Source: an uncultured Prevotella sp. (GTDB taxonomy: Bacteria > Bacteroidota > Bacteroidia > Bacteroidales > Bacteroidaceae). Taken from it: 33,861 nt of DNA. The notes beneath the pieces are model-generated. The model ran no database searches. It was not told the DNA's origin and saw only the letters and a program-made list of their open reading frames with translations. Shown piece after piece: positions 842-28,721 of the stretch. Made by a program: the position numbers and the translations under genes. The first letter of the stretch is position 1, and every line of letters begins with the position of its first letter. The stretch spans positions 1 through 33,861 of the forward strand of contig USSF01000018.1 in the NCBI GenBank assembly GCA_900557405.1, read 5' to 3'.

Positions 842-2416
842 TTAAAATGGTTTTCTTTTTACGTAAACCGGACGAATTGCTGTAGCATTCTCATCTCTAA
901 TTACATTCAGTTGCTCTACAACGATTCTATCTCCTTTCTTTTTAAAATACAAACACTTAACAGTTGACGGATTGCTTGGTACCAAAGCACTTGACCAACG
1001 GTAACCTCCAGATGATAATTCACTGAAGTATGCAAAGAAGATGTAGTTGTTGTTGATTTTAGATACGAACATTACGCCCAGCTTTCCATTGAGTGTAGAC
1101 TCCGTAACCGTACAGTTATCGATCAATTCCTGCATTTCGTTCCATGTCGGGTATCTCCATCCTTCTCCAAGTCGCAGATAGGCTACATCATCTTCCTTCT
1201 CAAGGAAATATCGCTTGTCACGGCTATCATACTTCGTGTATTGTCCCTTTACTATGTCAGTGAAGTAATAATAATCGGTTCCAATCTTTTCCCAGGTCTC
1301 GCCCCAAGAGTAACTGCTGCCAAAATTTTCAGGTCTTCTTGCGCCCAGGTCGCATTTTGCCCACTTTATACCGCTTGGCAATCCGAGGTCAACATACTTC
1401 ATGGTTTCCTTAGCCGTGCTTACGCCGGAGTTAAGCTTCAGTTCTTCAATCTTCCTGGCAATCTCCGCCATGGCGTCCGTCTCGCTCTTGCTGCCGTCTT
1501 TCACAGCCTGCAGCAGATTGATGATTTCCGTATTGATGGCAGTGATTTTCAGTCCGTAGTCCGGCATTGCCTTGATTGCCTGTTCGATGGCGGCGAGCTT
1601 CTTGCCGTTGTCGGAAATGGCACTTTGGATGCTCTCGAGTATGGCAAGCTTTTCGGTGAGCGTTGCGTTCATATCCTTCATTGCCTGCTCTATTGCCTTG
1701 AGCTGCTCGGAATAGTCGGGCATTGCCTTGATGGCGGCCTCGATGGCGACGAGCTTTTCGGAGTAGTCGGGCAGACTGGTGATTGCCTTGATGAGGAGTT
1801 CCATCTTGGCATCGAAGCTGCTGGTCTGGTCCTTGATGACCTGCTCTATAAGCGCCAGCTTGTCTTTCAAGGCGATGGTCTGCTCCTTCATAGCAGCCTC
1901 GATTGCTCCGAGCTTCACTTCGAGCGTGGTGTTCAGGTTGGAGAGGATGCCCTTGATGAGATCCATCTTCGCCTCCATGGATATGGTCTGCTCCTTCAAG
2001 GCTGCCTGGATGGCACCGAGCTTGGTCTCGAGCGTAGTGTTCAAGCTGCTGATTACCTGCTCTATGAGCGCCAGCTTGCTCTCCATGGAGAGGGTCTGCG
2101 CCCTCATGGCAGCCTCGATGGCGGCGAGCTTGGTCTCAAGGGTGTTGTTGACGGATGTGATGGCTTCCATGATGGCCTGGAGCTTGGTCTGCTGGTCGGC
2201 ATTCATCTGGTCGATGGCTGCCACGAGTTTGGCTATCGCCTGCTCATTGCTGAGCGAACTGTTGTTGATGGCGTCCACCACTTTGGTGAAGTCGTTGACC
2301 ACGGTCACTTTCATCTCGTAGTCTATCTCGGGAGCGTTCTCCTGACAGGAGCTGAAGAACGCCGGTGTCGCCAGCAACATCGCGCCGGCCAACACTATTG
2401 ATTTTAATGTTCTCAT
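842..2416 (-). CDS. Surface lipoprotein with 18-residue-repeat stalk and one Fib_succ_major-like head
   Basis: A 524-aa lipoprotein. The N-terminus is a signal peptide ending in lipobox FFSSC (Cys near residue 24). Residues about 35-330 form a regular helical stalk of 18-residue repeats with K-L-x-A-I-E-x-A-type cores, punctuated by MPDYSEQL-type breaks. The heptad-plus-hendecad period of 18 fits a coiled coil. From about residue 338 a head begins with VDLGLPSG and W-A-K-C, then S-W-G-E-T, and ends with AIRPV, the signature of the Fib_succ_major (TIGR02145-like) domain common in Bacteroidota surface proteins. It is the last gene of a leftward operon, 18 nt after the OmpA-like gene, with AAAGGA 7 nt before the start. 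It is paralogous to the 3819-6095 gene, with an almost identical stalk and a different head. Function is inferred only: surface structure or adhesin-like. Confidence 0.85.
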   Translation of the reverse strand: MRTLKSIVLAGAMLLATPAFFSSCQENAPEIDYEMKVTVVNDFTKVVDAINNSSLSNEQAIAKLVAAIDQMNADQQTKLQAIMEAITSVNNTLETKLAAIEAAMRAQTLSMESKLALIEQVISSLNTTLETKLGAIQAALKEQTISMEAKMDLIKGILSNLNTTLEVKLGAIEAAMKEQTIALKDKLALIEQVIKDQTSSFDAKMELLIKAITSLPDYSEKLVAIEAAIKAMPDYSEQLKAIEQAMKDMNATLTEKLAILESIQSAISDNGKKLAAIEQAIKAMPDYGLKITAINTEIINLLQAVKDGSKSETDAMAEIARKIEELKLNSGVSTAKETMKYVDLGLPSGIKWAKCDLGARRPENFGSSYSWGETWEKIGTDYYYFTDIVKGQYTKYDSRDKRYFLEKEDDVAYLRLGEGWRYPTWNEMQELIDNCTVTESTLNGKLGVMFVSKINNNYIFFAYFSELSSGGYRWSSALVPSNPSTVKCLYFKKKGDRIVVEQLNVIRDENATAIRPVYVKRKPF

Positions 2417-2434
2417 AGTTATTCCTTTTTTTTG

Positions 2435-3778
2435 TTATTCCTTGACTGTTATTGTCACACGGCGGCCTTCGTAGTTCCTCTTGCCGTTTCTGGCTCCGAC
2501 GGCGGTCTGCGGATGCAGGTCTTCGGGGGCGAAGCCCTCCTTGCGCAATATCTTCACCACCCGCTTCATGCGGCGCTCGGAGATGGTCTGGTTGTATCTG
2601 GCAGTGCCCGGTGTGCTTGCCTCGGCGAGGATGGCGAGCTTCCTGCCCTTCATGCTGCGGGCGAATGAGCGCAGGCGGTCTGCCTCCTCACGGCTCATGC
2701 TGGAGCTGTTGTGGGCGAACTGCACGTAGTGTTCGGGGGCTTTTGCCACGGCTTTCTTGCTTTCACGGCAGTCGTCGAGCTGGCGCTGCAGGTCGCTGTT
2801 CTGCTGCTCCGCCTTCTGCCGGAGGGCAGCTTCGCGGTCGGCGCGAGCCTTTTCGGCTTCAGCCTCCTGACGCAGGGTGTTGGCGCGGTCGTTGAGAGTG
2901 GCTATCTCTCCGGCATAAAACTCGCGCAGCTTGCTCGCACGGCTCCTCACGAAGTTGTAGCGCACTGTGGCAAGGGCGTAGATGAGGTTCTTGGGTGCCA
3001 CCTCCTTGCGGTTGAGCAGCCAGTCCATCTCGCCCTTCAGCCCCAGGGTGAACCGTCGGCTCACATCAGCCTCGATGTGGAGCGTGGCGGGGATGAAGAG
3101 CTTGTTGAACTTCTCGTGGCGGTTGGCTGTTGCCACCCTTCCTACGATGGTCACCGTGGCGTCGTTGCTGATGTTCAGGTCGCCGAACACCGGTGTGGTG
3201 GTCTCGCCTTCGGTGATGGTGTTGCCCACCCATATACCGTATTCGTTGCCGCGGGCGAAGGTTCCTCCCAGGCCCGTGCCCAGCCAGATGTTAAGCCACT
3301 GGGGCTTGCGGTTGGGCCATAGCTCCATGAAGTTGAACTGCACGCCGAGCTTCACGTTGTGGGTGTTGATTACGTAGTTGCCGTATGTCTTGGCAGGCGA
3401 TGTCTCGGTGTTGAGCGCCGAGAAGCGCTGCTCGCGGCGGTAGCGCGACCATATATAGTCGGCTCCTACGCGAATCCACGGACGTATGGTGAAGTCTACG
3501 CCGCCGCCCACGGCGGGCGACTGCTTGTAGCTCTTCTTTGCGTCCAGGTTCTGATACCACACGCCGGTTGCCCATGAGAGTCCGCCCTGGGCGTAGACGC
3601 TCCATGTACGGGTGCGAAGTTCCTTGTTGGTGTCGCGCGGCGGTTCAGCGATGCCCTCGCTTGCGGTCTGCGCCTGAGCGCCTACCGTGAAGAGCGATGT
3701 AAGCAATACGCTGAGCCCTGTTCTTGCCCATCTGCCAGATGATAGCGTAATGAGCTTTTTGGTTCGTATTGTGTTCAT
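2435..3778 (-). CDS. OmpA-like outer-membrane beta-barrel protein
   Basis: A 447-aa protein with a signal peptide ending VGAQAQ (about residue 37). Residues about 45-275 contain alternating aromatic/polar strands typical of an outer-membrane beta-barrel. Residues about 285-340 are a charged helical linker rich in A, E, K and R. The C-terminal about 100 residues form an OmpA-like peptidoglycan-binding domain (ISERRMKRVVKIL, then GARNGKRNYEGRRVTI). The usual D-x-G-start of the domain is not strongly conserved, so peptidoglycan binding is family-based inference. It lies between two paralogous stalk lipoproteins, 40 nt after one and 18 nt before the other, and very likely works with them at the outer membrane. 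The start has an AAAGGA Shine-Dalgarno-like site. Confidence 0.85.
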   Translation of the reverse strand: MNTIRTKKLITLSSGRWARTGLSVLLTSLFTVGAQAQTASEGIAEPPRDTNKELRTRTWSVYAQGGLSWATGVWYQNLDAKKSYKQSPAVGGGVDFTIRPWIRVGADYIWSRYRREQRFSALNTETSPAKTYGNYVINTHNVKLGVQFNFMELWPNRKPQWLNIWLGTGLGGTFARGNEYGIWVGNTITEGETTTPVFGDLNISNDATVTIVGRVATANRHEKFNKLFIPATLHIEADVSRRFTLGLKGEMDWLLNRKEVAPKNLIYALATVRYNFVRSRASKLREFYAGEIATLNDRANTLRQEAEAEKARADREAALRQKAEQQNSDLQRQLDDCRESKKAVAKAPEHYVQFAHNSSSMSREEADRLRSFARSMKGRKLAILAEASTPGTARYNQTISERRMKRVVKILRKEGFAPEDLHPQTAVGARNGKRNYEGRRVTITVKE

Positions 3779-3818
3779 ACTTAATTCCTTTTTAAATCAT
3801 TATCTTTTTTTCAGATAC

Positions 3819-6095
3819 TTATTTATTTGAGTAGAGGTCGAATACCGGTCGTATCACAACACCAAAATCACGGAATATTGATTTAAACGATGGTTCCTCG
3901 ATACCTTCGCTTGATGTCTCTTTAGCAAACATAGGCCATGTAAGCGCTACTGCCTTTTGGTATTTATATTCATTTGACAATTCATCAGCCGGCGGATATA
4001 GATTAGCTGTAGTATAGTAGATGTCTAAGTCAGGCTGGACACCCCATCCATCAGCTTTGAAACCACTGGTCATCGGTAAAACGATAGAGTTTCCGCTTGG
4101 TCCTGTCACTTTCCATCGTACAATGACTTTCTTCTGCGACGGATCTATTATCTCTGAAAGTGTGGTAGTAACGGCTTCCCATTTACAATCTTCAAGCAGC
4201 TCTTCCCAGTCTTCTTTTGTAGGAATGCGATAGCCTACACCTAAATTAACTCTTGCCGCATCGTCGTTGAGGTCAAGCACTTCCTTGCCGTCTTTCTCAT
4301 TATACTTTAATATATTTAGATTTTCATTAATCTTAAAATGCTTGTAGTTATCACTATAATATTTCTTCTTGGTAGAAGTCTCTCCCCAGGCATAGTAATC
4401 GCCAGGTTGTGTAGGATCAGTTGTACCCATATTGCACTTAGCCCACAGCAGTCCGCTATTCAATCCAAGGTCAACGCAATTGTTAGGAACCGGCACGCCA
4501 GGCCCCTTGACCGGACGAATTGATATTCCGTCAGGACGACGTTTGCCATAACGGCCAATGCGGTCATTCTGGAAAGCAAAGCTCCAAGCGTTGTATACCA
4601 TGTAGTCTATACGACGAAGGTTCGTCATGCATACAGCTACTGATTCGTCATCAGTGATTTCTCTGGTTATTGGCTTGTCACTCCTCTTAAAGCCGGCGCA
4701 AGGGATAAAGACAGACTTTCCGTTCTTCTTGCTCGTTATCTGATAGCCCGCAACACCGTTAAGCGTTGTTTTCTTGATTGTGGTTAATTTCTGATTGGTC
4801 AATTCTCTGAAGTCAGCCAGGCTCGGTGTGCGCCAGCCTTTTCCTAAATTCTGTATTACGGCATCGTCTTCATCTTCAAGCGTCAGCTTGCCGTCTTCAT
4901 TGTTATACTTGGTGAATCCCAGACTGGGTGCACCCTCCTTATACCACTTATGGTTGGGATAGGTGTATTCCTGCTTAGGCTTTGTTTCGCCCCAAGCGTA
5001 ATAGTCGCCATACTGTTCTGGAGAAGAAGCACCGAGGTTGCACGTTGCCCACAGGTTGCCACTCGGCAAACCGAGGTCTACAAACTCTACAGAGTCTTCA
5101 ATACCGGCAGCCGCTTTAAGTTTTTCAATCTTCTTGGCTATCTCGTCCAGGGCAGCCTTCTGACTCTTCTTGCCGTCCGTCACTGCCTTCACGAGGTTGG
5201 CAATCTCTGTCTTGATATTATTGAAGGCATCGGTATAGTCCGGCATGTCCCCGATTGCCTTGCCTATTGCCTCCAGCTTATTGCCGTTGTCGGAGATGGC
5301 ACTTTGGATGCTCTCGAGTATGGCAAGCTTTTCGGTGAGCGTGGTGTTCATATCCTTCATTGCCTTCTCTATTGCCTTGAGCTGCTCGGAGTAGTCAGGC
5401 ATTGCCTTGATGGCGGTCTCGATGGCGGCGAGCTTTTCGGAGTAGTCTGGCAGACTGGTGATTGCCTTGATGATGAGTTCCATCTTGGCGTCAAAGCTGG
5501 TGGTCTGGTCCTTTACGGCTTGCTCGATGAGCGCCAGCTTCTCTGACAGGGCGATGGACTGCTCCTTCATTGTGGCCTCGATGGCACCGAGCTTCACTTC
5601 GAGCGTGGTGTTCAGGTCGGAGAGGATGCCTCTGATGAGATCCATCTTCGCCTCCATGGAGATGGTCTGCTCCTTCAGGGCAGCCTCGATGGCACCGAGC
5701 TTCACATCAAGTGTTGTGTTCAGACTGCTGATTACCTGCTCGATGAGTGCGAGCTTGTTCTCCATGGACAGGGTCTGCGCCTTCATGGCAGCCTCGATGG
5801 CGGCGAGCTTGGCATTGAGCGTGTTGTTGACAGACGTGATGGCCTCCATGATGACCTGGAGCTTGGTCTGCTGGTCGGCATTCATCTTGTCGATGGCAGA
5901 AACGAGCATGTTTATCGCCTGCTCGTTTCTGAGTGTTCCGTTGTTTATGGCTTCCACCACCTTGGTGAAGTCGTTTGCCACGGTCACTTCCATCCTATAC
6001 TTCAGTAGGGTGCCGTCCTCCTCGCAGGAGCTGAAGAACAGCGGCGTAGCCAGCAGCATCGCACCAGCTAACAAAATGGATTTTAATGTACTCAT
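3819..6095 (-). CDS. Surface lipoprotein with 18-residue-repeat stalk and two Fib_succ_major-like heads
   Basis: A 758-aa lipoprotein. The signal peptide and lipobox FFSSC are nearly identical to the 842-2416 paralogue, as is the stalk of 18-residue repeats (about 35-330, units such as TLEVKLGAIEATMKEQ). Two heads follow: one from about residue 338 (VDLGLPSGNLWATCNLG, YYAWGET, GWRTPS, ISIRPV) and one from about residue 541 (VDLGLNSGLLWAKCNMG, YYAWGET, GYRIPT, VVIRPV). Each resembles a complete Fib_succ_major domain. It is the first large gene of the leftward operon, 46 nt after a small ORF and 40 nt before the OmpA-like gene. The conserved stalk with divergent heads indicates duplication and then head diversification. 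Role is inferred: surface binding or scaffold protein. Confidence 0.87.
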   Translation of the reverse strand: MSTLKSILLAGAMLLATPLFFSSCEEDGTLLKYRMEVTVANDFTKVVEAINNGTLRNEQAINMLVSAIDKMNADQQTKLQVIMEAITSVNNTLNAKLAAIEAAMKAQTLSMENKLALIEQVISSLNTTLDVKLGAIEAALKEQTISMEAKMDLIRGILSDLNTTLEVKLGAIEATMKEQSIALSEKLALIEQAVKDQTTSFDAKMELIIKAITSLPDYSEKLAAIETAIKAMPDYSEQLKAIEKAMKDMNTTLTEKLAILESIQSAISDNGNKLEAIGKAIGDMPDYTDAFNNIKTEIANLVKAVTDGKKSQKAALDEIAKKIEKLKAAAGIEDSVEFVDLGLPSGNLWATCNLGASSPEQYGDYYAWGETKPKQEYTYPNHKWYKEGAPSLGFTKYNNEDGKLTLEDEDDAVIQNLGKGWRTPSLADFRELTNQKLTTIKKTTLNGVAGYQITSKKNGKSVFIPCAGFKRSDKPITREITDDESVAVCMTNLRRIDYMVYNAWSFAFQNDRIGRYGKRRPDGISIRPVKGPGVPVPNNCVDLGLNSGLLWAKCNMGTTDPTQPGDYYAWGETSTKKKYYSDNYKHFKINENLNILKYNEKDGKEVLDLNDDAARVNLGVGYRIPTKEDWEELLEDCKWEAVTTTLSEIIDPSQKKVIVRWKVTGPSGNSIVLPMTSGFKADGWGVQPDLDIYYTTANLYPPADELSNEYKYQKAVALTWPMFAKETSSEGIEEPSFKSIFRDFGVVIRPVFDLYSNK

Positions 6096-6141
6096 AGTCT
6101 TATTGTTTTGGGTTATTGTTATTTTGAGTTGACAAGCTTAT

Positions 6142-6375
6142 TCAGAGTAAACTCCTCAGCCACCGCAGTAATGTGCATCTTCGTGGCTTGGCGTCGGGAG
6201 GCGGATTGCTGCATTGCGCCACTTCCCCTCTGCCAACCTCGCGATGGTCAATCTCCTCGTTTATCATCTCACGGATGGTGTCGAGCAGCTGGGTGCGGTC
6301 GTCAAGAAGCTGCTGCGCCTCATTCTTCTTGCTGCTCCGGTCGTCATGCCGTATGCTGTCGTATATATGTCCCAT
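6142..6375 (-). CDS. Small ORF at the head of the lipoprotein operon
   Basis: A possible 77-aa protein, not recognised. The first about 45 residues are charged and helical (KKNEAQQLLDDRTQLLDTIREM), the rest is basic with a leucine-rich end (LLRWLRSLL). No signal peptide or known motif is visible. Support comes from position: it is the first ORF after the operon promoter (-7 box 6500-6507) and ends 46 nt before the first lipoprotein gene in the same direction. It could instead be a non-coding leader. The start has no Shine-Dalgarno site, which is normal in this phylum. Confidence 0.4.
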   Translation of the reverse strand: MGHIYDSIRHDDRSSKKNEAQQLLDDRTQLLDTIREMINEEIDHREVGRGEVAQCSNPPPDAKPRRCTLLRWLRSLL

Positions 6376-6758: not shown

Positions 6759-6795
6759 CAGACACAACCTGAATCATATCAAAAACTTGAAACCT

Positions 6796-9672
6796 ATGAA
6801 CGCTCCACGATGCTATGACACCGCCCTATGGTGGAACCTTATGACGATATGCCTGCTGCTGGTTTCCTGCGGACAGAAACCGGCGAGGATATCCCCTGCC
6901 GAACGAAAGGCACTGAACAGCACCATCTCCTCCTCGCACAATATCGACACGCTGTCCATGATGCAGAAGCGCATGGAGAAGGAGGGCAACATGCTGGGCA
7001 GCATCATCGCCTACAGACTGATGGGCAAGGAGATGCGCGACGACAGCCAGTTTGACAATGCACTGCGCCTGCACAGCGAGGGACTGAAACAGGCGGAGGC
7101 CATCGGCGACACGCTGGAGATGGTGCAGGCGCTCAACAACATCGGTACTGACTACCGCCGCATGGGAGTGCTCGACCTGGCGCAGAACTATCATTACCGT
7201 GCTTGGACGATAAGCAAGGTATGTCAGGACACTTCGTATGACGCAAGGAAAAGCCGGGTGGTATCGCTGAACGGACTGGGCAACATATATCTCACCTTGG
7301 GCAACTACGAACGTGCCGACAGCGCCTTGCGACTGGCTCTGGAGGGCGAGAAGGACCTGCACAGCGAACTGGGGCAGGCTATCAACTACGCCAATATCGG
7401 CTCCATATTCAGACATCGCGGCATGAGGGATTCGGCATGGGTGTATTTCCGCAAGTCGATGGAGATGAACCGCCGCATAGACAATACGCTCGGCATATCG
7501 CTCTGTCATACCGACTTCGGGTCGATGTATGAGCGCGAACACCAATACGACAAGGCGATAGCCGAATACGAGAAAGCATACGAGCTGATGAAAGCCTCGG
7601 ACGACAAATGGCACATGCTCAACTCGCTCATCGCCCTGGCAGGTGTGAACATGGCCACGGGCAACGAGAGCAAGGCGATGCTGCATCTCGCAAAAGCCAA
7701 GGGAGTGGCAGAAGAAATAAAGTCGCATGAGCATCTGGCGGAGATATACAACCTATACTATAAGCACTACAAACGCTCGGGCGACTACGGCGCTGCCCTC
7801 GCCTCACACGAGAAAGCCACAGCCATGCGCGACAGCGTGGTGGACATGGAGAAGATGAACCGCATACAGAACGCCGGACTGCTCATCGAGCGCAACCAGC
7901 AGGAAAGGGCGGTGAGCGAGGCGCACCTGAATCTCAAAAGCGAAAGGTCTGCACGCTTTCTTATCAGCGTGGTCTCCATCATCGTGGTGGTAATACTGGT
8001 GGGCGCACTGGCTGTATTCTTCTTTGCGCAGCGCATCCATCGCCGCAACCATCTGGCGCTGAAACGCCTTGCCGAGATGCGCGAGACTTTCTTCACCAAC
8101 ATCACGCATGAGTTCAGAACGCCTCTCACCGTAATCCTCGGACTGAGCCAGAAGCTACAGAAGAACGGACAGGAAGAGGTGAAGGACTCTGCGCAGACCA
8201 TCGAACGGCAGGGGAAAGGACTCCTGGCACTCATCAACCAGCTGCTCGACATATCGAAGATAAAGTCGCAGGTGGGCAGTCCGGACTGGCGGAACGGCAG
8301 CATCACCACATACGCCACAATGATTGTGGACACATACCGCGACTATGCCCGAACAAAGAACATTGAATTGCAGTTTTATGCCAAGGAAGCGGTGACGATG
8401 GACTTCGTGCCAGACTACGTAAGCAAGGTATTAAACAATCTGATATCAAACGCCTTGAAGTTCACACCGGAGTATGGCAGGATTAACGTGACGATGTGGC
8501 GCAAGGAGGACATCCTATACATGGAAGTGAGCGACACGGGGGAAGGCATGGACAAGGAGACGGCAGACAACGTGTTCAGACCTTTCTATCAGGGTGAGAC
8601 AGCGTCGAAACACATCGGAACGGGTGTGGGGCTGGCGCTCGTAAAGCAGGTGATAGATGCGGTAAACGGAAATATAAGCGTGGAGAGCAAAGTCGGCGAA
8701 GGCACCACATTCCACATGGAAATGCCGATAAGCAACGCATGCAACAACAAATTGGGCGAAAACATGGTGGCAAACGACATGCCGAAGATGCCGGAGGAGG
8801 AAAAGGCGCTTGCCGACAGCGACGCCGCAGACGACCAATGCACGGTGCTCATAATAGAGGACAACCGCGACATCGCGGCATACATAGGCGGTCTGCTGCA
8901 TGACAGATACAGCGTGGCTTACGCCGTGAACGGAGAGGACGCACTGCAGAAGGCAATCGACATAGTGCCCGACCTGATCATCACTGACCTGATGATGCCG
9001 GGCATGGACGGACTGGAACTGTGCCGCCGAGTGAGGGCAGACAACGTGGTGAACCATATACCGATAGTAATCGTTACGGCGAAGATTTCGGAACAGGAGC
9101 GCATTGCCGGCATCGAGGCTGGTGCCGACGCTTATCTCGCCAAGCCGTTCAATGCAGACGAACTGCTCACCGTGGTGGAACGGCTGCTCGACCGCCAGCG
9201 CTCACTGCGCAGCAAGTTCAGCGCCAGCATCGATGCCAACGGCAATATCGCCACCAGTGGCAACAAAGACTCCAATAACAACAAGGACTCCAACGGCAAC
9301 GGGGACAAGGAAGAAGAGGCTGTGAGGCTCACGGATGCCGAGCGACGCTTCCTGTCCAAGACCATAGACCACATCTATCTGCTGCTTGACAAGCAAAAAC
9401 TCGATGTCAGCACACTGGCAGACAAGCTCTGCATGAGTCCGCGACAGTTCCACCGCAAGATAGTGGCGCTCACAGGCTGTTCGCCGGCTTCGTTCATGCT
9501 GAAGATAAAGATGAAGCGCGCACGCCATCTGCTCGAGAACGACACAAAGATGAGTATTGACGAAATAGCCTCACGCTGCGGCTTCGAACACACCTCCAGC
9601 TTCTACCACGCCTTCCGCAAAGCTTATGGCGTGACGCCGAAGGATGTGAGAAGAGAAATGGGGGCTGGGTGA
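6796..9672 (+). CDS. Hybrid two-component system regulator (TPR-type HTCS)
   Basis: A single-chain sensor and transcription factor of about 958 aa. It has an N-terminal lipobox-like signal (LLLVSCGQ) and a periplasmic TPR-type helical sensor (about 45-370, with ALNNIGTDYRRMG and NGLGNIYLTLGNYERA). One membrane helix follows (about 388-410), then a histidine kinase domain with phospho-acceptor His about 438 in THEFRTPL and an ATPase (NNLISNALKF, DTGEGM, GTGVGLAL). A receiver with Asp about 731 (LIITDLMMPGMDG, Lys in AKPF), an Asn/Lys/Asp-rich linker and an AraC-type HTH pair (LDVSTLADKLCMSPRQF, then IDEIASRCGFEHTSSF) complete it. A TTG at 6787 is in frame, but ATG 6796 is the better start. No polysaccharide-utilisation genes adjoin. 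The natural target is the divergent lipoprotein operon, whose promoter has three repeats. Confidence 0.93.
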   Translation: MNAPRCYDTALWWNLMTICLLLVSCGQKPARISPAERKALNSTISSSHNIDTLSMMQKRMEKEGNMLGSIIAYRLMGKEMRDDSQFDNALRLHSEGLKQAEAIGDTLEMVQALNNIGTDYRRMGVLDLAQNYHYRAWTISKVCQDTSYDARKSRVVSLNGLGNIYLTLGNYERADSALRLALEGEKDLHSELGQAINYANIGSIFRHRGMRDSAWVYFRKSMEMNRRIDNTLGISLCHTDFGSMYEREHQYDKAIAEYEKAYELMKASDDKWHMLNSLIALAGVNMATGNESKAMLHLAKAKGVAEEIKSHEHLAEIYNLYYKHYKRSGDYGAALASHEKATAMRDSVVDMEKMNRIQNAGLLIERNQQERAVSEAHLNLKSERSARFLISVVSIIVVVILVGALAVFFFAQRIHRRNHLALKRLAEMRETFFTNITHEFRTPLTVILGLSQKLQKNGQEEVKDSAQTIERQGKGLLALINQLLDISKIKSQVGSPDWRNGSITTYATMIVDTYRDYARTKNIELQFYAKEAVTMDFVPDYVSKVLNNLISNALKFTPEYGRINVTMWRKEDILYMEVSDTGEGMDKETADNVFRPFYQGETASKHIGTGVGLALVKQVIDAVNGNISVESKVGEGTTFHMEMPISNACNNKLGENMVANDMPKMPEEEKALADSDAADDQCTVLIIEDNRDIAAYIGGLLHDRYSVAYAVNGEDALQKAIDIVPDLIITDLMMPGMDGLELCRRVRADNVVNHIPIVIVTAKISEQERIAGIEAGADAYLAKPFNADELLTVVERLLDRQRSLRSKFSASIDANGNIATSGNKDSNNNKDSNGNGDKEEEAVRLTDAERRFLSKTIDHIYLLLDKQKLDVSTLADKLCMSPRQFHRKIVALTGCSPASFMLKIKMKRARHLLENDTKMSIDEIASRCGFEHTSSFYHAFRKAYGVTPKDVRREMGAG

Positions 9673-13306: not shown

Positions 13307-13418
13307 CGTTTTCGTGTGTATGCAGCAGCGGTATACCGGCTGCGGAGAATAGTAGAGAATGTTGGAAACATGTATTCATATACAAGCCCACCATATAAAC
13401 AATCAAATATCCGAGCAT

Positions 13419-16400
13419 ATGAAGAAACTATTATTTATATCGCTACTTTTATTCTGCCAATTGTCTGCAACAGCACAAGATGCAGACAAGACAGCAGGTC
13501 AACTGGTCAACAGCCAGAACTGGCTGGAACTGAACATGCAATATCCACAGCTGAAAACTCAGATGAAGTCTGAGATGCTGAAAAACATTGCCGAAGCGAT
13601 GATTGGATACCAATTCAACCGACCGGAACAGACTATACAGGCTATCAACATTTTGCTCAATAAGCATCAAGCAGAGCTTGGAACTCAAAACACATACAGT
13701 TTTATCATTCTTCTCGCCAAGACTCTCTGCCAAGAAGGACAGTATGCAAGTGCTGCTTCAATGATGGACAACATTCTCCCTGCGCTGTCTTCACAACCTC
13801 GAAATGGATTGGTGGGAGCCTTGTTCACATACAATAAAGAAATTCAGGCATTAAGAAATCAGCAGCCTATCAGAATCAGTCCTGTGTCACAGGATATTAT
13901 TGTTCCATGCAGTAATATGATGAACATCACAGCTGTCATAAACAGCAGGCCATTAGAATTTGTCATTGATCCATGCTGCGACCATACAGTAATTCCTATT
14001 GAAACGGCAAAAGCATTGAATATAAAGGTTCTGCCTGATACGGTCGAACACATGGGACAAAAAGTATTGCTGGGAATTGTAGACAAGATGAACATCGGGG
14101 ATTTGGAAATACACAACATCGTTGCAGAAATACCTTTAGCCTCAACCAAGCCTCTTACCATAGGTCGCGATATTCTGAGTGCTGCCGGAGAAATCCAGTT
14201 TGATATTGACAACAGCAAGATTATATTTCCCAAGAACCATACTCCTGCTCCTTCCACAGGCCCGTCTTTCTATCGGGACATGAAATTCAATATCTCCCCC
14301 AACCACCATAAGATGGTGATCAACTACAGGGATATGTTCATAAAGGAAATCGGCGAAGACAAAAGTTCCACGCTTTCATACGAAAAGCAATTGGACGAAG
14401 TGGAAGTATTGGCGGCAAGGAAACTGGTAAAGGTTGGCAGTGGGAAATTAACGTATGACGTTACCGGCGACGAAGAAGCAAAAGCAAGTTCGGTTTTTGA
14501 CATACTACGCAAAGTACCGCTTGTAACCATTGACGGTCAGGACAATATTCTGGTGAAAGGCAATTCTGCATATAAGATCTACCGTAACGGACATCTTGAC
14601 CCTACTCTAAGCTCAATATCGGCAAAAGATATCCTCAAGGCAATTCCGGCTTCCACAATAAGACAGATTGAGGTAATTACCGAGCCTGGGGCAAAATACG
14701 ACGCGGAAGGCACTTCTGCCGTACTGAATATAATAACAAGCAGCAACTCTTTAATAAAAGGTGCAACAGGTATGCTGTCTTCGAGTATCAACAACAACGG
14801 CACAAACCGCAGTTCGGCGTACACCGCTACAAGTATTGGCAAGACTACTGTATCGGCTAATTACGCCTTCACACAGTTTCCGACGAAGGAAAACGAAAGC
14901 AGCATACATTCTTCCGTGTTATACAGAAACGGGCAAGTTCTCGATATGCTGCAGCAGAGCCAAAGTCGCGGCAATGCTCATTATATGAATATTGCCGCAA
15001 GTTGTGATATTGACTCCCTTAATCTCCTGTCTTTCTCGGCAGGAGGTTATTTTTTATCATACAAGACAAATTCCATGTCAAGCTACAGTCGCTATGACGA
15101 CTTGAATGATTTGCTTTATTCCTATGATGAATACAATCTGAATCCCCGCAACCGATACAACAACTATAACTTGCGCATGGACTATCAACACAAGATGAGA
15201 AAACCGGGTAATGTATTTACGCTTAGCTACATGTTGAATGGTACACAGAATAAAGCAGACAACAATGTCGGGTATTCCAACCATTTCAATATGCCTATGG
15301 ATTATACTGCATACAGCAGATACGTGAAGAACAACAACACAGAACACACTGTACAGCTTGACTACACGACAAGGATAGACAAGCATAACACTCTGGATTT
15401 GGGATTGAAATACATTTACCGACTTAGCAAGAACACAACCGAACAGGATTATTCCGGAAAAGAAAAAGCCATGTCCTCGCTTTTCAATCATTCCACCAAC
15501 ATAGCCGCTTCGTATGCGGAATGGAATGTCCGGTATGGGAAATGGAATTTCCGACCGGGAATGCGTTATGAATTCTCCCGCTTGAAAGGTAGTTATCCTA
15601 AAGGAAGCGGTAATCCATACAGCTGCAACCTAAGTGACTTTGTCCCTTCCGTAAACATTCTCTATAAACTGAATGACGAGAACTCTATCCAATATAACTA
15701 TGCCATGAGCATCAACCGCCCGGGCATCAGCTACCTGAACCCGGCTGTTGTCGTTCAGCCTGAGTCCAAGTCTTACGGAAACACTAAACTAAAAAGCAGC
15801 AGAAGCAGTCAGATGGCTTTGACATGGACAAATATCACAAGCAAAACAACAAATCAAATGATTCTTGCATATGGGTTTACTGATAATTTCCTGACAAATG
15901 TAGATTTTATGACTGACAATATACGCACTACCACTTATGCCAATGCTCTTCATGTGCGCATGGCATCATTTATGGATTTCCTGCAATGGACTCCATCGCA
16001 GAAGACAAGGATTTCCATGAACTGCACTTTGGGATGGATGAAGGATTATTTTCCGGAACAGGGATTATACAACAAGGGACTGTACGGAAATGTCAACGGC
16101 AATATTTCTCAAAAATTGTTTTGGAACATTTTGCTTAATGTTGGTGGCGGAGCATCGTTCGGTCATAACTTGTCGGGCTTGTACGGCCGCACGGCAAACT
16201 ACCATTCAGACTACTTGAGCTTACAAAGGAGCTTTCTGAAAGAGGACAGGCTGACGGTTTCCCTATGGACAGTCTGTCCATTTGAACGGCATAGGGCACA
16301 GACACAATACACCACGCAAGGGGATTATACCGGTTTTACTCATACCATAAATGTCAGCAGACAATTTGGAGTTAAACTGTCTTTGCGATTTGGCAACAAC

Positions 16401-16478
16401 AAGATTGAAGTGAAGAAGACTGGCAAGAACTTGGACAATAAAGATGTTGTAGGTGGTTTGAAGGCTCCGAAAGAATAA
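13419..16478 (+). CDS. Outer-membrane beta-barrel protein with a degenerate retropepsin-like domain
   Basis: A protein of about 1019 aa with a signal peptide (MKKLLFISLLLFCQLSATAQ). Residues about 25-150 are helical, perhaps TPR-like. Residues about 168-270 look like a retropepsin-type aspartyl protease fold (PLEFVID, HTVIPIETAKALNI, IGDLEIHNI, TIGRDIL, FDIDNSKIIF). The active-site D-T/S-G is replaced by D184-P-C-C, so catalysis is unlikely. Residues about 355-440 form a TonB-receptor-like plug (VFDILRKVPLVTIDG, IRQIEVITEPGAKYDAEGT). The rest is a beta-barrel of the OMP_b-brl_3 type. The usual carboxypeptidase-like N-terminal domain is absent. ATG 13419 is chosen over 13359 because the signal peptide begins there. 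No clear TAnnTTTG box precedes it. Cargo or partner is unknown. Confidence 0.85.
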   Translation: MKKLLFISLLLFCQLSATAQDADKTAGQLVNSQNWLELNMQYPQLKTQMKSEMLKNIAEAMIGYQFNRPEQTIQAINILLNKHQAELGTQNTYSFIILLAKTLCQEGQYASAASMMDNILPALSSQPRNGLVGALFTYNKEIQALRNQQPIRISPVSQDIIVPCSNMMNITAVINSRPLEFVIDPCCDHTVIPIETAKALNIKVLPDTVEHMGQKVLLGIVDKMNIGDLEIHNIVAEIPLASTKPLTIGRDILSAAGEIQFDIDNSKIIFPKNHTPAPSTGPSFYRDMKFNISPNHHKMVINYRDMFIKEIGEDKSSTLSYEKQLDEVEVLAARKLVKVGSGKLTYDVTGDEEAKASSVFDILRKVPLVTIDGQDNILVKGNSAYKIYRNGHLDPTLSSISAKDILKAIPASTIRQIEVITEPGAKYDAEGTSAVLNIITSSNSLIKGATGMLSSSINNNGTNRSSAYTATSIGKTTVSANYAFTQFPTKENESSIHSSVLYRNGQVLDMLQQSQSRGNAHYMNIAASCDIDSLNLLSFSAGGYFLSYKTNSMSSYSRYDDLNDLLYSYDEYNLNPRNRYNNYNLRMDYQHKMRKPGNVFTLSYMLNGTQNKADNNVGYSNHFNMPMDYTAYSRYVKNNNTEHTVQLDYTTRIDKHNTLDLGLKYIYRLSKNTTEQDYSGKEKAMSSLFNHSTNIAASYAEWNVRYGKWNFRPGMRYEFSRLKGSYPKGSGNPYSCNLSDFVPSVNILYKLNDENSIQYNYAMSINRPGISYLNPAVVVQPESKSYGNTKLKSSRSSQMALTWTNITSKTTNQMILAYGFTDNFLTNVDFMTDNIRTTTYANALHVRMASFMDFLQWTPSQKTRISMNCTLGWMKDYFPEQGLYNKGLYGNVNGNISQKLFWNILLNVGGGASFGHNLSGLYGRTANYHSDYLSLQRSFLKEDRLTVSLWTVCPFERHRAQTQYTTQGDYTGFTHTINVSRQFGVKLSLRFGNNKIEVKKTGKNLDNKDVVGGLKAPKE

Positions 16479-24830: not shown

Positions 24831-26468
24831 ATGAAACAAATGTTCATTACTGCCTTATTGGCAACGGCATGTACACTTGGTATATCTGCACAGAGTATTG
24901 AAGTGACCAATACCGAGGGGCTGACATACAAGTTTGCTGCCGAAAGGGTTAAGGACATAACCTTTATCAAGACGACCGCTCCCGAAATCTGTGATTTCAG
25001 CGCTGTCGACGCCACAGCCTATTCATCGGGCTCCGTAGAGGCCACGTTTACCACCGCCGACAATTCCAAGGCGCTCACCCTGTGGATTGACGGCAAACAG
25101 GACGTCAATTTCCTGGATGCAGGAGTATACAACGTTTCGGCTGAAGCCGGAAATATGGTCATCGACCCCGACCCGAGGTCAACTTTCCTGAAAGAGGGCG
25201 ACAAGACTACTACGCTGAAGGCGGGCACGATGACCGTGGCCATCTCCGGCAGGGAATACACCATTACGTTCGACTTAACACTTGCCGACGACACGGAGTT
25301 CAAGGCGAAATACGTGGGCGAAATGCCCGGCGTGGTGAGCAAGGACTTCACGCTCGCCACTTGCAGCGAGCCGAAGGTGATGACCACCGACGTGAATGGC
25401 TATGTAAAGGGTGAATTCTATGTGAAGATGAATGATGCCGACTGGAACTACGAGATGGTGGTGGACTTCTTCGCCGATGCAGCTGCGGCCAAGCTGCCAG
25501 CCGGAACATACACGTATTCTGCAGAGAACAAGCCCGGCACGTTCGGCGCCAAAAGCTGTCTGGACACCTACTCGCCCAACAACAACTTCAAGTTTGCCGA
25601 GGGCAGCACGGTCACCGTGGCATACGAAGGCGAGAACATCAGCATCAAGATAAACGGCATCACGACCTGTGGCCGCAAGTTCGACATGACATACAACGGC
25701 AAGATCACATTCCCCGAGGCAGCGCCGGCTGAGGAAACCGTGTTCAGCTCTATCAAAGCCGATGTATATTCCAGCTACATGGAGGCTACATTCTCCACCG
25801 CCGACCAATCCAAGAGCATGACGCTGGAGATTTCCGGCCAATACCTGGAAGAAGGCGTGTATAACGTTACGGCGGTATCCGGCGACAAGACTATCAGCTC
25901 TGACGCAAGATATTCATTCGTGAAGGAAGGCCAGGAGAGCAAGGGCGTGGCATCAGGCACGATGACCGTGGCAATCTCCGGCAGGGAATACACCATCACC
26001 TGCGATTTCACGCTTGCCGACGGCAGTGAGATGAAGGCGAAATACACAGGCACGCTGCCGGGAATGATGAGCAAGGACTTCACGCTCGAAACATGTAAAG
26101 AGCCAACGGTGCTGACCACCGACGTGAATGGTTATGTAAAGGGTGAATTCTATGTGAAGATGAACGATGCCGACTGGAACTATGAGATGGTGGCAGACTT
26201 CTTCGCCGATGCCGATGCAGCCAAGCTGCCTGCCGGAACATACACTTATTCTGCAGAGAACAAGCCAGGCACGTTCGGCGCCAAAAGCTGTCTGGACATC
26301 TACACTCCAAACAACAACTTCAAGTTTGCCGAGGGCAGCACGATTACCGTGGCATACGAAGGCGAGAACATCAGCATCAAGATAAACGGCATCACGACCT
26401 GCGGCCGCAAGTTCGACATGACATACAACGGCAAGATTACATTCCCCGAGAATGCTCCGGCGGAATAA
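24831..26468 (+). CDS. Secreted protein of duplicated beta-rich modules
   Basis: A 545-aa protein with a signal peptide (MKQMFITALLATACTLGISA). A short N-terminal motif (EVTNTEGLTYKFAAERVKDITF) recurs in many Bacteroidota secreted proteins. Then come two 244-residue copies, each of two modules, with hallmark segments GTMTVAISGREYTIT-D-TLADG and VTVAYEGENISIKINGI. The copies differ most in their first modules, while the second modules are nearly identical. No lipobox, enzyme motif or sorting tail is seen. It is the first of three genes, with the next starting 57 nt later. I do not recognise a function. The modules resemble beta-sandwich or calycin-like folds by pattern only. Confidence 0.85.
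   Translation: MKQMFITALLATACTLGISAQSIEVTNTEGLTYKFAAERVKDITFIKTTAPEICDFSAVDATAYSSGSVEATFTTADNSKALTLWIDGKQDVNFLDAGVYNVSAEAGNMVIDPDPRSTFLKEGDKTTTLKAGTMTVAISGREYTITFDLTLADDTEFKAKYVGEMPGVVSKDFTLATCSEPKVMTTDVNGYVKGEFYVKMNDADWNYEMVVDFFADAAAAKLPAGTYTYSAENKPGTFGAKSCLDTYSPNNNFKFAEGSTVTVAYEGENISIKINGITTCGRKFDMTYNGKITFPEAAPAEETVFSSIKADVYSSYMEATFSTADQSKSMTLEISGQYLEEGVYNVTAVSGDKTISSDARYSFVKEGQESKGVASGTMTVAISGREYTITCDFTLADGSEMKAKYTGTLPGMMSKDFTLETCKEPTVLTTDVNGYVKGEFYVKMNDADWNYEMVADFFADADAAKLPAGTYTYSAENKPGTFGAKSCLDIYTPNNNFKFAEGSTITVAYEGENISIKINGITTCGRKFDMTYNGKITFPENAPAE
25000..26463 (+). repeat. 732-bp internal direct repeat
   Basis: The two halves of the 24831-26468 gene repeat with an exact 732-bp period. 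The segments 25385-25720 and 26117-26452 are almost identical at the DNA level. Confidence 0.85.
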
Positions 26469-27026: not shown

Positions 27027-28721
27027 ATGAAAAGATTTATAATGGCAGTTTGTGCGATTGCATCAGCAGCTACGATGCTCGCACAGAGTTATCAGGTGGT
27101 AGTTACCACAAACGATGGCGAGCGCAAGGTTTTTGCAACCGACGATGTATCTGACATAAAATTCAACAACGCCCCCACATACATGGAGGCCAACCACATG
27201 ATAGAGGCGACTTACAGCCCGAACTCCGAAAACGGGACATACAGCCTCATCATTGGCACGGACGAGCCCGATGGCGACGGAATGCCGGCGGCGATGGGCG
27301 ACATGCAGATAGGACTCATCATGCACGCTCCGCTCAGCCAGGAGGCGCAGAACGCCGTCCTGCCCGAAGGATACTACCGCGTGGAGAACACCAACGCACC
27401 ATTCTCCGTGAGCCCCATCCGCTCGCTCGTATGGGTGCGCTATTCCGCTGAAGAGAACGGAGTGACTACAGGATACATCATCGACGGAACAGTTGACGTA
27501 CGCCACGAAGGCGAGAACTACGACCTGCGCGCCGAGATAGACCTCGTGGACGGATCACACCTCGACATTTCATACTACGGCAAGATAAAGTTCACCGTAA
27601 CGGCATCCGGCTCAGTAGACTTCGAGAGCGACCAGAACGTGACGTTCACCGAAGGCCAGGGCAGAATCTGGGCCAACTGGTTCGCTCCGTTCTGCGACGA
27701 CGGTTCGCTGCAGTTCTTCACCGGCACGTTTGACAATAACAACAAGCAGACAGAGGGCTACAGCCTCGTAGTGCCCTACTACATGCCGAAGAGCGACACC
27801 CACACGCCGACATGGAAGCCAGTAATGGCAGACGGCACATACAAGGTGGACCGCCGCGAGATAGTGACGAGCCAGACCTATCTGCCCTTCACGCTGCAGC
27901 AGGGCACGAGGATATCCGTGTTCGGAGAAACCGTGGTGAGCGGAGCATACATCACATACCTTGCGCCCGACGGACGCATATCCCTGGCCATCATCAACGG
28001 CGGAACGATGACCGTATCCGACAACGGAACGAAGTTTGAATTCGACTTCACCACCGTGGAGGGAATAAAAGTCACCGGAACATACGACGGCGCCCCATAC
28101 ATCGTGAACATGATTGACAACAGCAACAAGCCGGAGTTCCAGGACAACCTGACAGGCGACTACGAGCTGAACAAGTTCCCGAGCAACACGGCTATAGTGG
28201 ACTACAACCTGGGCGACTACATCATCGAGGGAGTGAACTCCCACGTGGTGATGTTCACCGAACCGGAAATGAAAACCGGCGACTACATCATGCTCGAGCT
28301 CCTCTCCGACTCCGAGGAAGAACTGAAAGACGGCGTCTACAAGATTGACAACTCGCTCACAGACTTCTCCGGCATCAAGGGCGTGGTGACATTCCAGGGC
28401 GGCATGGAATTCTCATGGTACGGCGACCTCGACTCCACCGACGATGAAGGATACCAGACCAGGCTCGCTCCGATTTCCGGCGGAACCGTGACCGTATCAA
28501 CCACGGAAGACGGCCAGCGCAAGTTCGACTTCGACCTCCGCGACCTGAAGGGCTACAAGATTACCGGCAGCCTCACAAGGAAGATGGCCTACGTGCCTAA
28601 CTCCCCGACGAACCAGGCCAAGCTGGAGCGCTTCAGCAAGCGTGCACTCGGCAAGGCAAAGCGCACATGGAGCAAGAGGAATACAGACTTCCAGCCGCGC
28701 GTATTGATGCCGCGCAAATAA
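27027..28721 (+). CDS. Secreted multi-module protein, related to the first gene of the operon
   Basis: A 564-aa protein with a signal peptide (MKRFIMAVCAIASAATMLAQ) and the shared N-terminal motif (VVVTTNDGERKVFATDDVSDIKF). At least three modules follow, marked by IDGTVDVRHEGENYDLRAEI, GGTMTVSDNGTKFEFDF and GGTVTVSTTEDGQRKFDFDL. Each pattern matches the GTxTV...DG...Y.G segment of the 24831 protein. The C-terminus is basic (KRALGKAKRTWSKRN) and unlike a sorting tail. It is the last gene of the operon, followed by a strong terminator. Function is unknown; surface or secreted role is inferred. Confidence 0.83.
   Translation: MKRFIMAVCAIASAATMLAQSYQVVVTTNDGERKVFATDDVSDIKFNNAPTYMEANHMIEATYSPNSENGTYSLIIGTDEPDGDGMPAAMGDMQIGLIMHAPLSQEAQNAVLPEGYYRVENTNAPFSVSPIRSLVWVRYSAEENGVTTGYIIDGTVDVRHEGENYDLRAEIDLVDGSHLDISYYGKIKFTVTASGSVDFESDQNVTFTEGQGRIWANWFAPFCDDGSLQFFTGTFDNNNKQTEGYSLVVPYYMPKSDTHTPTWKPVMADGTYKVDRREIVTSQTYLPFTLQQGTRISVFGETVVSGAYITYLAPDGRISLAIINGGTMTVSDNGTKFEFDFTTVEGIKVTGTYDGAPYIVNMIDNSNKPEFQDNLTGDYELNKFPSNTAIVDYNLGDYIIEGVNSHVVMFTEPEMKTGDYIMLELLSDSEEELKDGVYKIDNSLTDFSGIKGVVTFQGGMEFSWYGDLDSTDDEGYQTRLAPISGGTVTVSTTEDGQRKFDFDLRDLKGYKITGSLTRKMAYVPNSPTNQAKLERFSKRALGKAKRTWSKRNTDFQPRVLMPRK

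Follow-up and report, generated by a model that had tools for sequence, protein, structure and literature searches.

Two paralogous lipoprotein genes flanking a gene for an OmpA-like outer-membrane protein raise the question of whether these proteins work together at the cell surface. We addressed this question in a 33,861-nucleotide stretch of DNA (the window) from an uncultured Prevotella sp. (GenBank assembly GCA_900557405.1, contig USSF01000018.1), where a leftward run of four genes on the minus strand encodes proteins of 77, 758, 447, and 524 amino acids. An open reading frame (ORF) check confirmed the coordinates, the strand, and the gaps of 46, 40, and 18 nt reported in a first-pass annotation of this DNA. 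The genes encode a small protein (6142..6375) that lacks a signal peptide by inspection, the two-headed lipoprotein LipoA (3819..6095), the OmpA-like protein (2435..3778), and LipoB, a single-headed paralogue of LipoA (842..2416). We found that the barrel and lipoprotein genes form a recurrent unit, paired more often than by chance, and that heads vary or are swapped while barrel and stalk are conserved. On balance, we favor a modular system of the outer membrane, with the OmpA-like barrel as the likely dedicated dock for putative surface lipoproteins carrying replaceable binding heads.

Scanning genome contigs with 11 aligned OmpA-like sequences yielded 23 loci, one of which (L023, from Neomarinimicrobiota, 31% over 91 residues) was removed before counting. 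In 21 of the remaining 22 loci, the OmpA-like gene had a stalk lipoprotein gene as its neighbor, both in the same orientation. One gene separates the two in L006, the lipoprotein gene of L020 is upstream and gave a weak blastp match, and in L017 the contig ends within the OmpA-like gene, the end of which lies with its lipoprotein gene on another contig of the same genome. The intervening gene of L006 (L006:3660-5792) has an intact reading frame and encodes fibronectin type III and thiol-activated cytolysin domains. Matches to the lipoprotein N-terminus (<1e-17, 22 genomes) were on the strand of the OmpA-like gene in 26 of 26 cases. Measured from match end to match start, 23 of these lay 26-191 nt downstream, two at 2,242 nt, and one upstream; a further match in G002 (2.4e-4, residues 4-35) was not counted. 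The spacing of 2,242 nt in G017 equals that in L006. It was by the OmpA-like gene that these 22 genomes had been found, and most of them supplied profile rows; alone, they show only a lack of orphan lipoproteins there. The closest locus in the contig scan was L001 of Leyella stercorea (best segment 77%).

Separate searches for the two proteins were made in 399 genomes from the family that includes G003, with an OmpA-like profile (E 1e-20) and a 75-residue lipoprotein profile (E 1e-6), scoring only the best first-look candidates in each genome (4 for the OmpA-like protein, 14 for the lipoprotein). The OmpA-like profile matched in 11 genomes and the lipoprotein profile in 10; nine genomes had both, and in all nine the genes were neighbors (Fisher p 8.5e-16 for co-occurrence over the 399 genomes, and 1.6e-9 without the four row-supplying genomes, with five having both). 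The one-sided matches were partial: those of G456 and G608 covered only the C-terminal part of the OmpA-like protein (from residue 243 or 283), and that of G761 was a signal-peptide match confined to residues 1-34 of the lipoprotein. The OmpA-like match of G514 contains an in-frame stop, and five genomes of this sample (G020, G514, G569, G621, and G791) have the gene order lipoprotein then OmpA-like. Independent occurrence of the genes, which the first-pass annotation had named as evidence against a joint system, was not seen, as full matches never stood apart in our samples at the thresholds used. In a genus sample, the lipoprotein was present in 8 of 249 genomes, with a neighboring OmpA-like gene in all eight; five of the eight had supplied profile rows and three (G791, G917, and G999) had not, and G006 and G791 were paired by coordinates. 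A second, overlapping genus sample yielded 2 positive genomes among 80, and an order-wide sample yielded 1 among 393 at E 1e-40, the starting genome only. The module is sporadic across the order. Searches for a phage or plasmid origin gave no DNA match in plasmids and no protein match in plasmids or phages.

Such a pairing has a parallel in Ata and TpgA of Acinetobacter, an adhesin and its partner whose genes, according to PMC6363060, are adjacent and gained or lost together; pairing and co-occurrence are seen here as well, and the OmpA-like protein weakly matches the NCBIfam TpgA family (16.1 bits against a cut-off of 350). Ata is a trimeric autotransporter, whereas LipoA and LipoB have a lipoprotein-type signal and match no barrel or autotransporter family. 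In addition, TpgA is termed a periplasmic protein in that paper, whereas in the Prevotella module it is the partner that carries the barrel.

The second line of evidence comes from the heads of the lipoproteins. LipoA and LipoB share their stalks (84.9% identical DNA; 77.0% identical protein over signal plus stalk), so that they are paralogous as first annotated without the stalks being near-identical. The LipoB head (residues 340-524, 845..1399) is only 34.3 and 31.8% identical to LipoA head 1 (4476..5078) and head 2 (3822..4475). For each of the 10 pairs compared, identity was lower in the head than in the stalk. The OmpA-like protein, stalk, and head were 98.9, 97.6, and 33.5% identical between L012 and L022; 93.8, 92.2, and 26.9% between L005 and L006; and 97.8, 90.1, and 56.0% between L003 and L004, labelled Prevotella and Alloprevotella, values that also point to transfer between genera. 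The least extreme pair was L003 and L018, with a head identity of 79.9%. At the DNA level, L012 and L022 are 96.2% identical over 8.49 kb, up to at most 13 nt from the preset head boundary; the head has no match, and identity returns at 95.1% 28 nt beyond the stop. This replacement between conserved flanks, together with the protein comparisons, bears out the interchangeability first proposed for this locus and places it in the heads. In other pairs, the DNA match extended into the head and returned about 0.6 kb beyond the gene (L003/L004), continued through the head (L003/L018), returned in L003 only after about 2 kb (L003/L007), or did not resume within the stretch compared (L005/L006, L014/L015, L012/L019, and L012/L013). 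A stretch comprising regulator and module is 91-97% identical in DNA among L003, L004, and L018, loci labelled Prevotella and Alloprevotella, which suggests a recent transfer. Downstream of the module, L018 encodes a protein (L018:14746-15948) similar to the head and hardly to the stalk, possibly a head donor.

Column variability told the same story within one alignment. Among LipoB and 116 homologues (the best 120 of 4306, four being dropped by length; columns less than 60% occupied excluded), 16 of 178 head columns exceeded 2 bits, compared with 0 of 319 in the signal, anchor, and stalk. This variation fits contact with changing ligands. A diversity-generating retroelement was considered as its source and rejected: the variable columns use E, K, Q, M, and W, and in retroelement targets residues vary only within the set that AAY codons can reach. 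A Pfam scan covering 16 ORFs of the window found no reverse transcriptase. C-terminal cassette exchange is also reminiscent of polymorphic toxins, and the cytolysin-family gene between the two module genes of L006 could be taken to point the same way, toward heads that are effector or toxin domains delivered to neighboring cells by the pair. We regard this as highly improbable, as the heads that could be recognized are of binding type (leucine-rich repeats in L013 and L015, and Lcl_C-like domains), and no immunity-type Pfam family appears among the four operon genes.

What the heads may bind is suggested by their family relationships. Twelve heads could be aligned with one another as an Lcl/FISUMP-like group, and six of the twelve matched PF07603 (Lcl_C) at 0.01, with a best E of 1.1e-6 and all scores below the gathering cut-off of 34.9 bits. 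Lcl of Legionella, whose C-terminal domain belongs to PF07603/DUF1566, likewise joins a repeat stalk to a C-terminal head, and this domain resembles C-type lectins and has sulphated glycosaminoglycans as ligands (PMC11162425). Unlike the proteins described here, Lcl has a collagen-like stalk, is described as an extracellular peripheral membrane protein, and has no OmpA partner in the portion of that paper available to us; the heads here, for their part, stay under the Pfam cut-off. Given the weak PF07603 matches of half the twelve heads and the ligands of the Legionella member, it is reasonable to guess at glycans by analogy, for the Lcl-type heads only. The FISUMP family (TIGR02145) was matched weakly by LipoA and by one of the twelve heads, below its curated cut-off, and its definition includes neither a stalk nor a barrel partner. 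The L013 and L015 heads contain leucine-rich repeats, with a weak match in that of L019; the heads of L001, L006, L009, L010, L012, and L022 gave no credible Pfam match. The head type shared by L006 and L010 (82 of 138 residues identical) also occurs as a separate 199-amino acid lipoprotein in L003 (64 of 131), and a second copy in G008 is a 906-amino acid lipoprotein with, by eye, apparent leucine-rich repeats followed by an Lcl-like domain. A profile search of solved chains gave no credible match for the head fold, and VIA-align, which covered mainly residues 33-330, hardly reached it.

We then considered the partner. The AlphaFold model of the OmpA-like protein predicts a barrel of eight long strands (residues 58-275, 2954..3607; extended strands 162-190 and 209-238), a single 62-residue helix (residues 280-341, 2756..2941), and an OmpA-type C-terminal domain (residues 349-445, 2444..2734). 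Escherichia coli OmpA was the best Foldseek match, and the fold corresponds to OmpA, OprF, and Pal, with a small 8-stranded barrel. In a profile search of the Protein Data Bank, the C-terminal domain matched Pal (E 4.7e-9) and OmpA (E 3.5e-10); in Pfam, the protein reached 27.0 bits for OmpA against a cut-off of 27.2, with a weak OMP_b-brl match and none to TonB receptors. The Asp of the Pal/OmpA domain contacts the peptidoglycan peptide. In 33 of 33 rows of the OmpA-like alignment A2, the residue aligned to this Asp is a Ser (Ser388, 2615-2617), while Arg403 is retained. Second OmpA-like copies in G005 (L056:1312-2349) and G008 (L057:581-1579) keep the barrel and helix and have almost lost the OmpA-type domain. 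Because the Asp is replaced by Ser and two second copies are without the domain, peptidoglycan anchoring by this protein appears doubtful. Of the first description as an OmpA-like barrel/peptidoglycan protein, the barrel and the OmpA-type domain are upheld by prediction and the peptidoglycan anchoring is in doubt. Retention of barrel and helix in copies that lost the domain fits a role of the barrel.

That role could be one of handing over. One gene per lipoprotein gene, adjacent in nearly all cases, and a conserved segment directly after the lipidated Cys would be expected if the OmpA-like protein were a Slam-like helper that exports or flips its lipoprotein and does not stay bound to it. Slam is mentioned in PMC12578637; the comparison of its role with that of the OmpA-like protein is our own. 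The small 8-stranded OmpA/OprF/Pal-type fold and a large periplasmic portion, for which a flippase has no obvious use, make such a helper quite unlikely. A partnership of an outer-membrane barrel with its own surface lipoprotein is known in Bacteroidetes from SusCD and BtuB-BtuG. The barrels of those systems are large TonB-dependent transporters, unlike the predicted 8-stranded OmpA-type barrel here.

Docking of the lipoproteins on the barrel would most plausibly involve the segment behind their lipidation site. By inspection, LipoA and LipoB each have a signal peptide and a lipobox-like Cys at residue 24. The anchor that follows spans residues 24-45 in LipoA (5961..6026, beginning CEEDGTLLKY) and in LipoB (2282..2347, beginning CQENAPEIDY). 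Across the family it reads CQEDAP in 18 of 24 proteins, with near-variants in most others, and all 18 rows of the lipoprotein alignment A4 have Glu at +3. Although conserved across the family, the segment has low confidence in the LipoB monomer model, up to residue 40. Its conservation resembles that of a binding motif, for which the barrel encoded beside it would be the obvious partner. Residues +2 to +6 were net negative in 24 of 24 proteins, selected with a search pattern that itself demanded Glu at +3. According to PMC5080379, surface lipoproteins of Bacteroidetes carry a negative export signal just after the Cys, and the charge seen here fits such signals, in a comparison for which a consensus for the window's genus is not established.

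The opposite orientation, with the lipoproteins facing the periplasm and the module acting as an envelope scaffold to connect the outer membrane with the cell wall and periplasmic proteins, would suit the predicted OmpA-type periplasmic domain and long helix, as well as the TPR region of the neighboring regulator, and post-Cys charge is a weak predictor. It accords poorly with hypervariable head columns and cassette replacement, which fit contact with ligands or enemies outside the cell, with the negative charge (within the limits of the search pattern), and with an OmpA domain that lacks the Asp and is absent from two second copies. We consider this scaffold unlikely.

The stalks (LipoA, 5085..5960; LipoB residues 46-332, 1421..2281) consist of predicted helix-turn repeats of 17 or 18 residues, the 17-residue units having a Pro at their turn. 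As judged from the model, short helices joined by turns, rather than a long coiled coil, probably make up the stalk. In the 18-residue unit, hydrophobic residues occupy positions 2, 5, 9, partly 12, and 16, a spacing of 3-4-3-4-4 in which positions 2 and 5 were fixed by the search pattern. With that reservation, this spacing would also suit a 7+11 coiled coil, and a monomer model is unable to show trimers; long trimeric coiled coils, which would make the lipoproteins true projecting fibers, are thus conceivable, if at modest odds. Set against the projecting fibers imagined by the first-pass annotation, the prediction is of short helices and not of long ones, and nothing indicates trimers. A classification of stalk lengths by pattern was discarded, as 115 of 143 proteins were missed.

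The proposed layout of one barrel gene with two lipoprotein genes is present in the window, yet it is not the basic unit: most genomes have one lipoprotein per barrel, and the window has a 1:2 variant of a 1:1 module. Over residues 24-55, the LipoA anchor agrees with the first lipoprotein of L002 at 27 of 32 positions and the LipoB anchor with the second at 28 of 32, compared with 21 and 22 of 32 in the cross matches. L002 has the gene order OmpA-lipo-OmpA-lipo, and the simplest history would be an ancestral double module from which the lineage of the window lost the first of two barrel genes. The remaining barrel probably serves both lipoproteins. Upstream of the run, a divergent gene on the plus strand (6787..9672) encodes a hybrid two-component regulator with a TPR region, kinase, receiver, and AraC-type HTH. 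Among the 17 loci with 5 kb or more of upstream sequence, nine had a full-length relative upstream on the opposite strand; the other eight had none in the stretch available, one of them (L007) having a 378-amino acid partial relative. The regulator likely controls the operon. No Bacteroidetes-type promoter pattern was found upstream of 6375. A more elaborate arrangement can be imagined, in which a ligand on the head shifts the anchor on the barrel and the long helix signals to the TPR-sensor regulator, so that the module combines adhesion with head-swappable sensing; such a contact receptor is improbable. Relatives of the small gene, 27-47% identical, lay upstream of the OmpA-like gene in eight loci (seven found by blastp, L009 added by eye).

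Under the dock reading, the lipoproteins would reach the cell surface, as predicted; the conserved segment after the Cys would dock on the barrel; the stalk would hold the head away from the membrane; the replaceable heads would bind variable ligands, probably glycans; and the neighboring regulator would control expression. Several points weigh against this reading. Gene pairing can stem from co-regulation or joint transfer instead of binding. The predicted extracellular barrel loops L2 and L3 are variable, and a clear docking surface was not seen. The prediction of surface exposure draws only on post-Cys charge, in proteins found by a pattern demanding Glu at +3, and the net charge of LipoB after the Cys is just -1. 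Among the eight locus pairs compared by DNA, identity resumes right after the head only in L012/L022. The Lcl_C scores of the LipoB head, L005, and L008 are 19.5, 25.7, and 26.5 bits, all under the Pfam cut-off, and the monomer model of the LipoB head, which contains all 16 hypervariable columns and is distantly Lcl_C-like, has partly low confidence. By inspection, no head is obvious at the end of L016 or L020, and L021 ends in just a short tail.

Elsewhere in the window, positions 13359-16478 encode a 1039-amino acid protein with an aspartyl-protease-like domain and a TonB-receptor-type barrel, a combination that looks unusual. Two ORFs near one another, 24831-26468 (545 amino acids) and 27027-28721 (564 amino acids), had zero Pfam matches at 0.001.

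In the literature searched, we found no description of a module composed of a barrel and a stalk-and-head lipoprotein. Together, the results make a modular surface-display system likely. If this is true, Bacteroidales would display exchangeable binding domains on a fixed barrel and stalk that accept new heads by recombination. The cassette break would then offer a direct handle on the attachment targets of these bacteria and on how they change between strains. Whether OmpA-type barrels can act as dedicated docks for surface lipoproteins is a testable question posed by the pairing.

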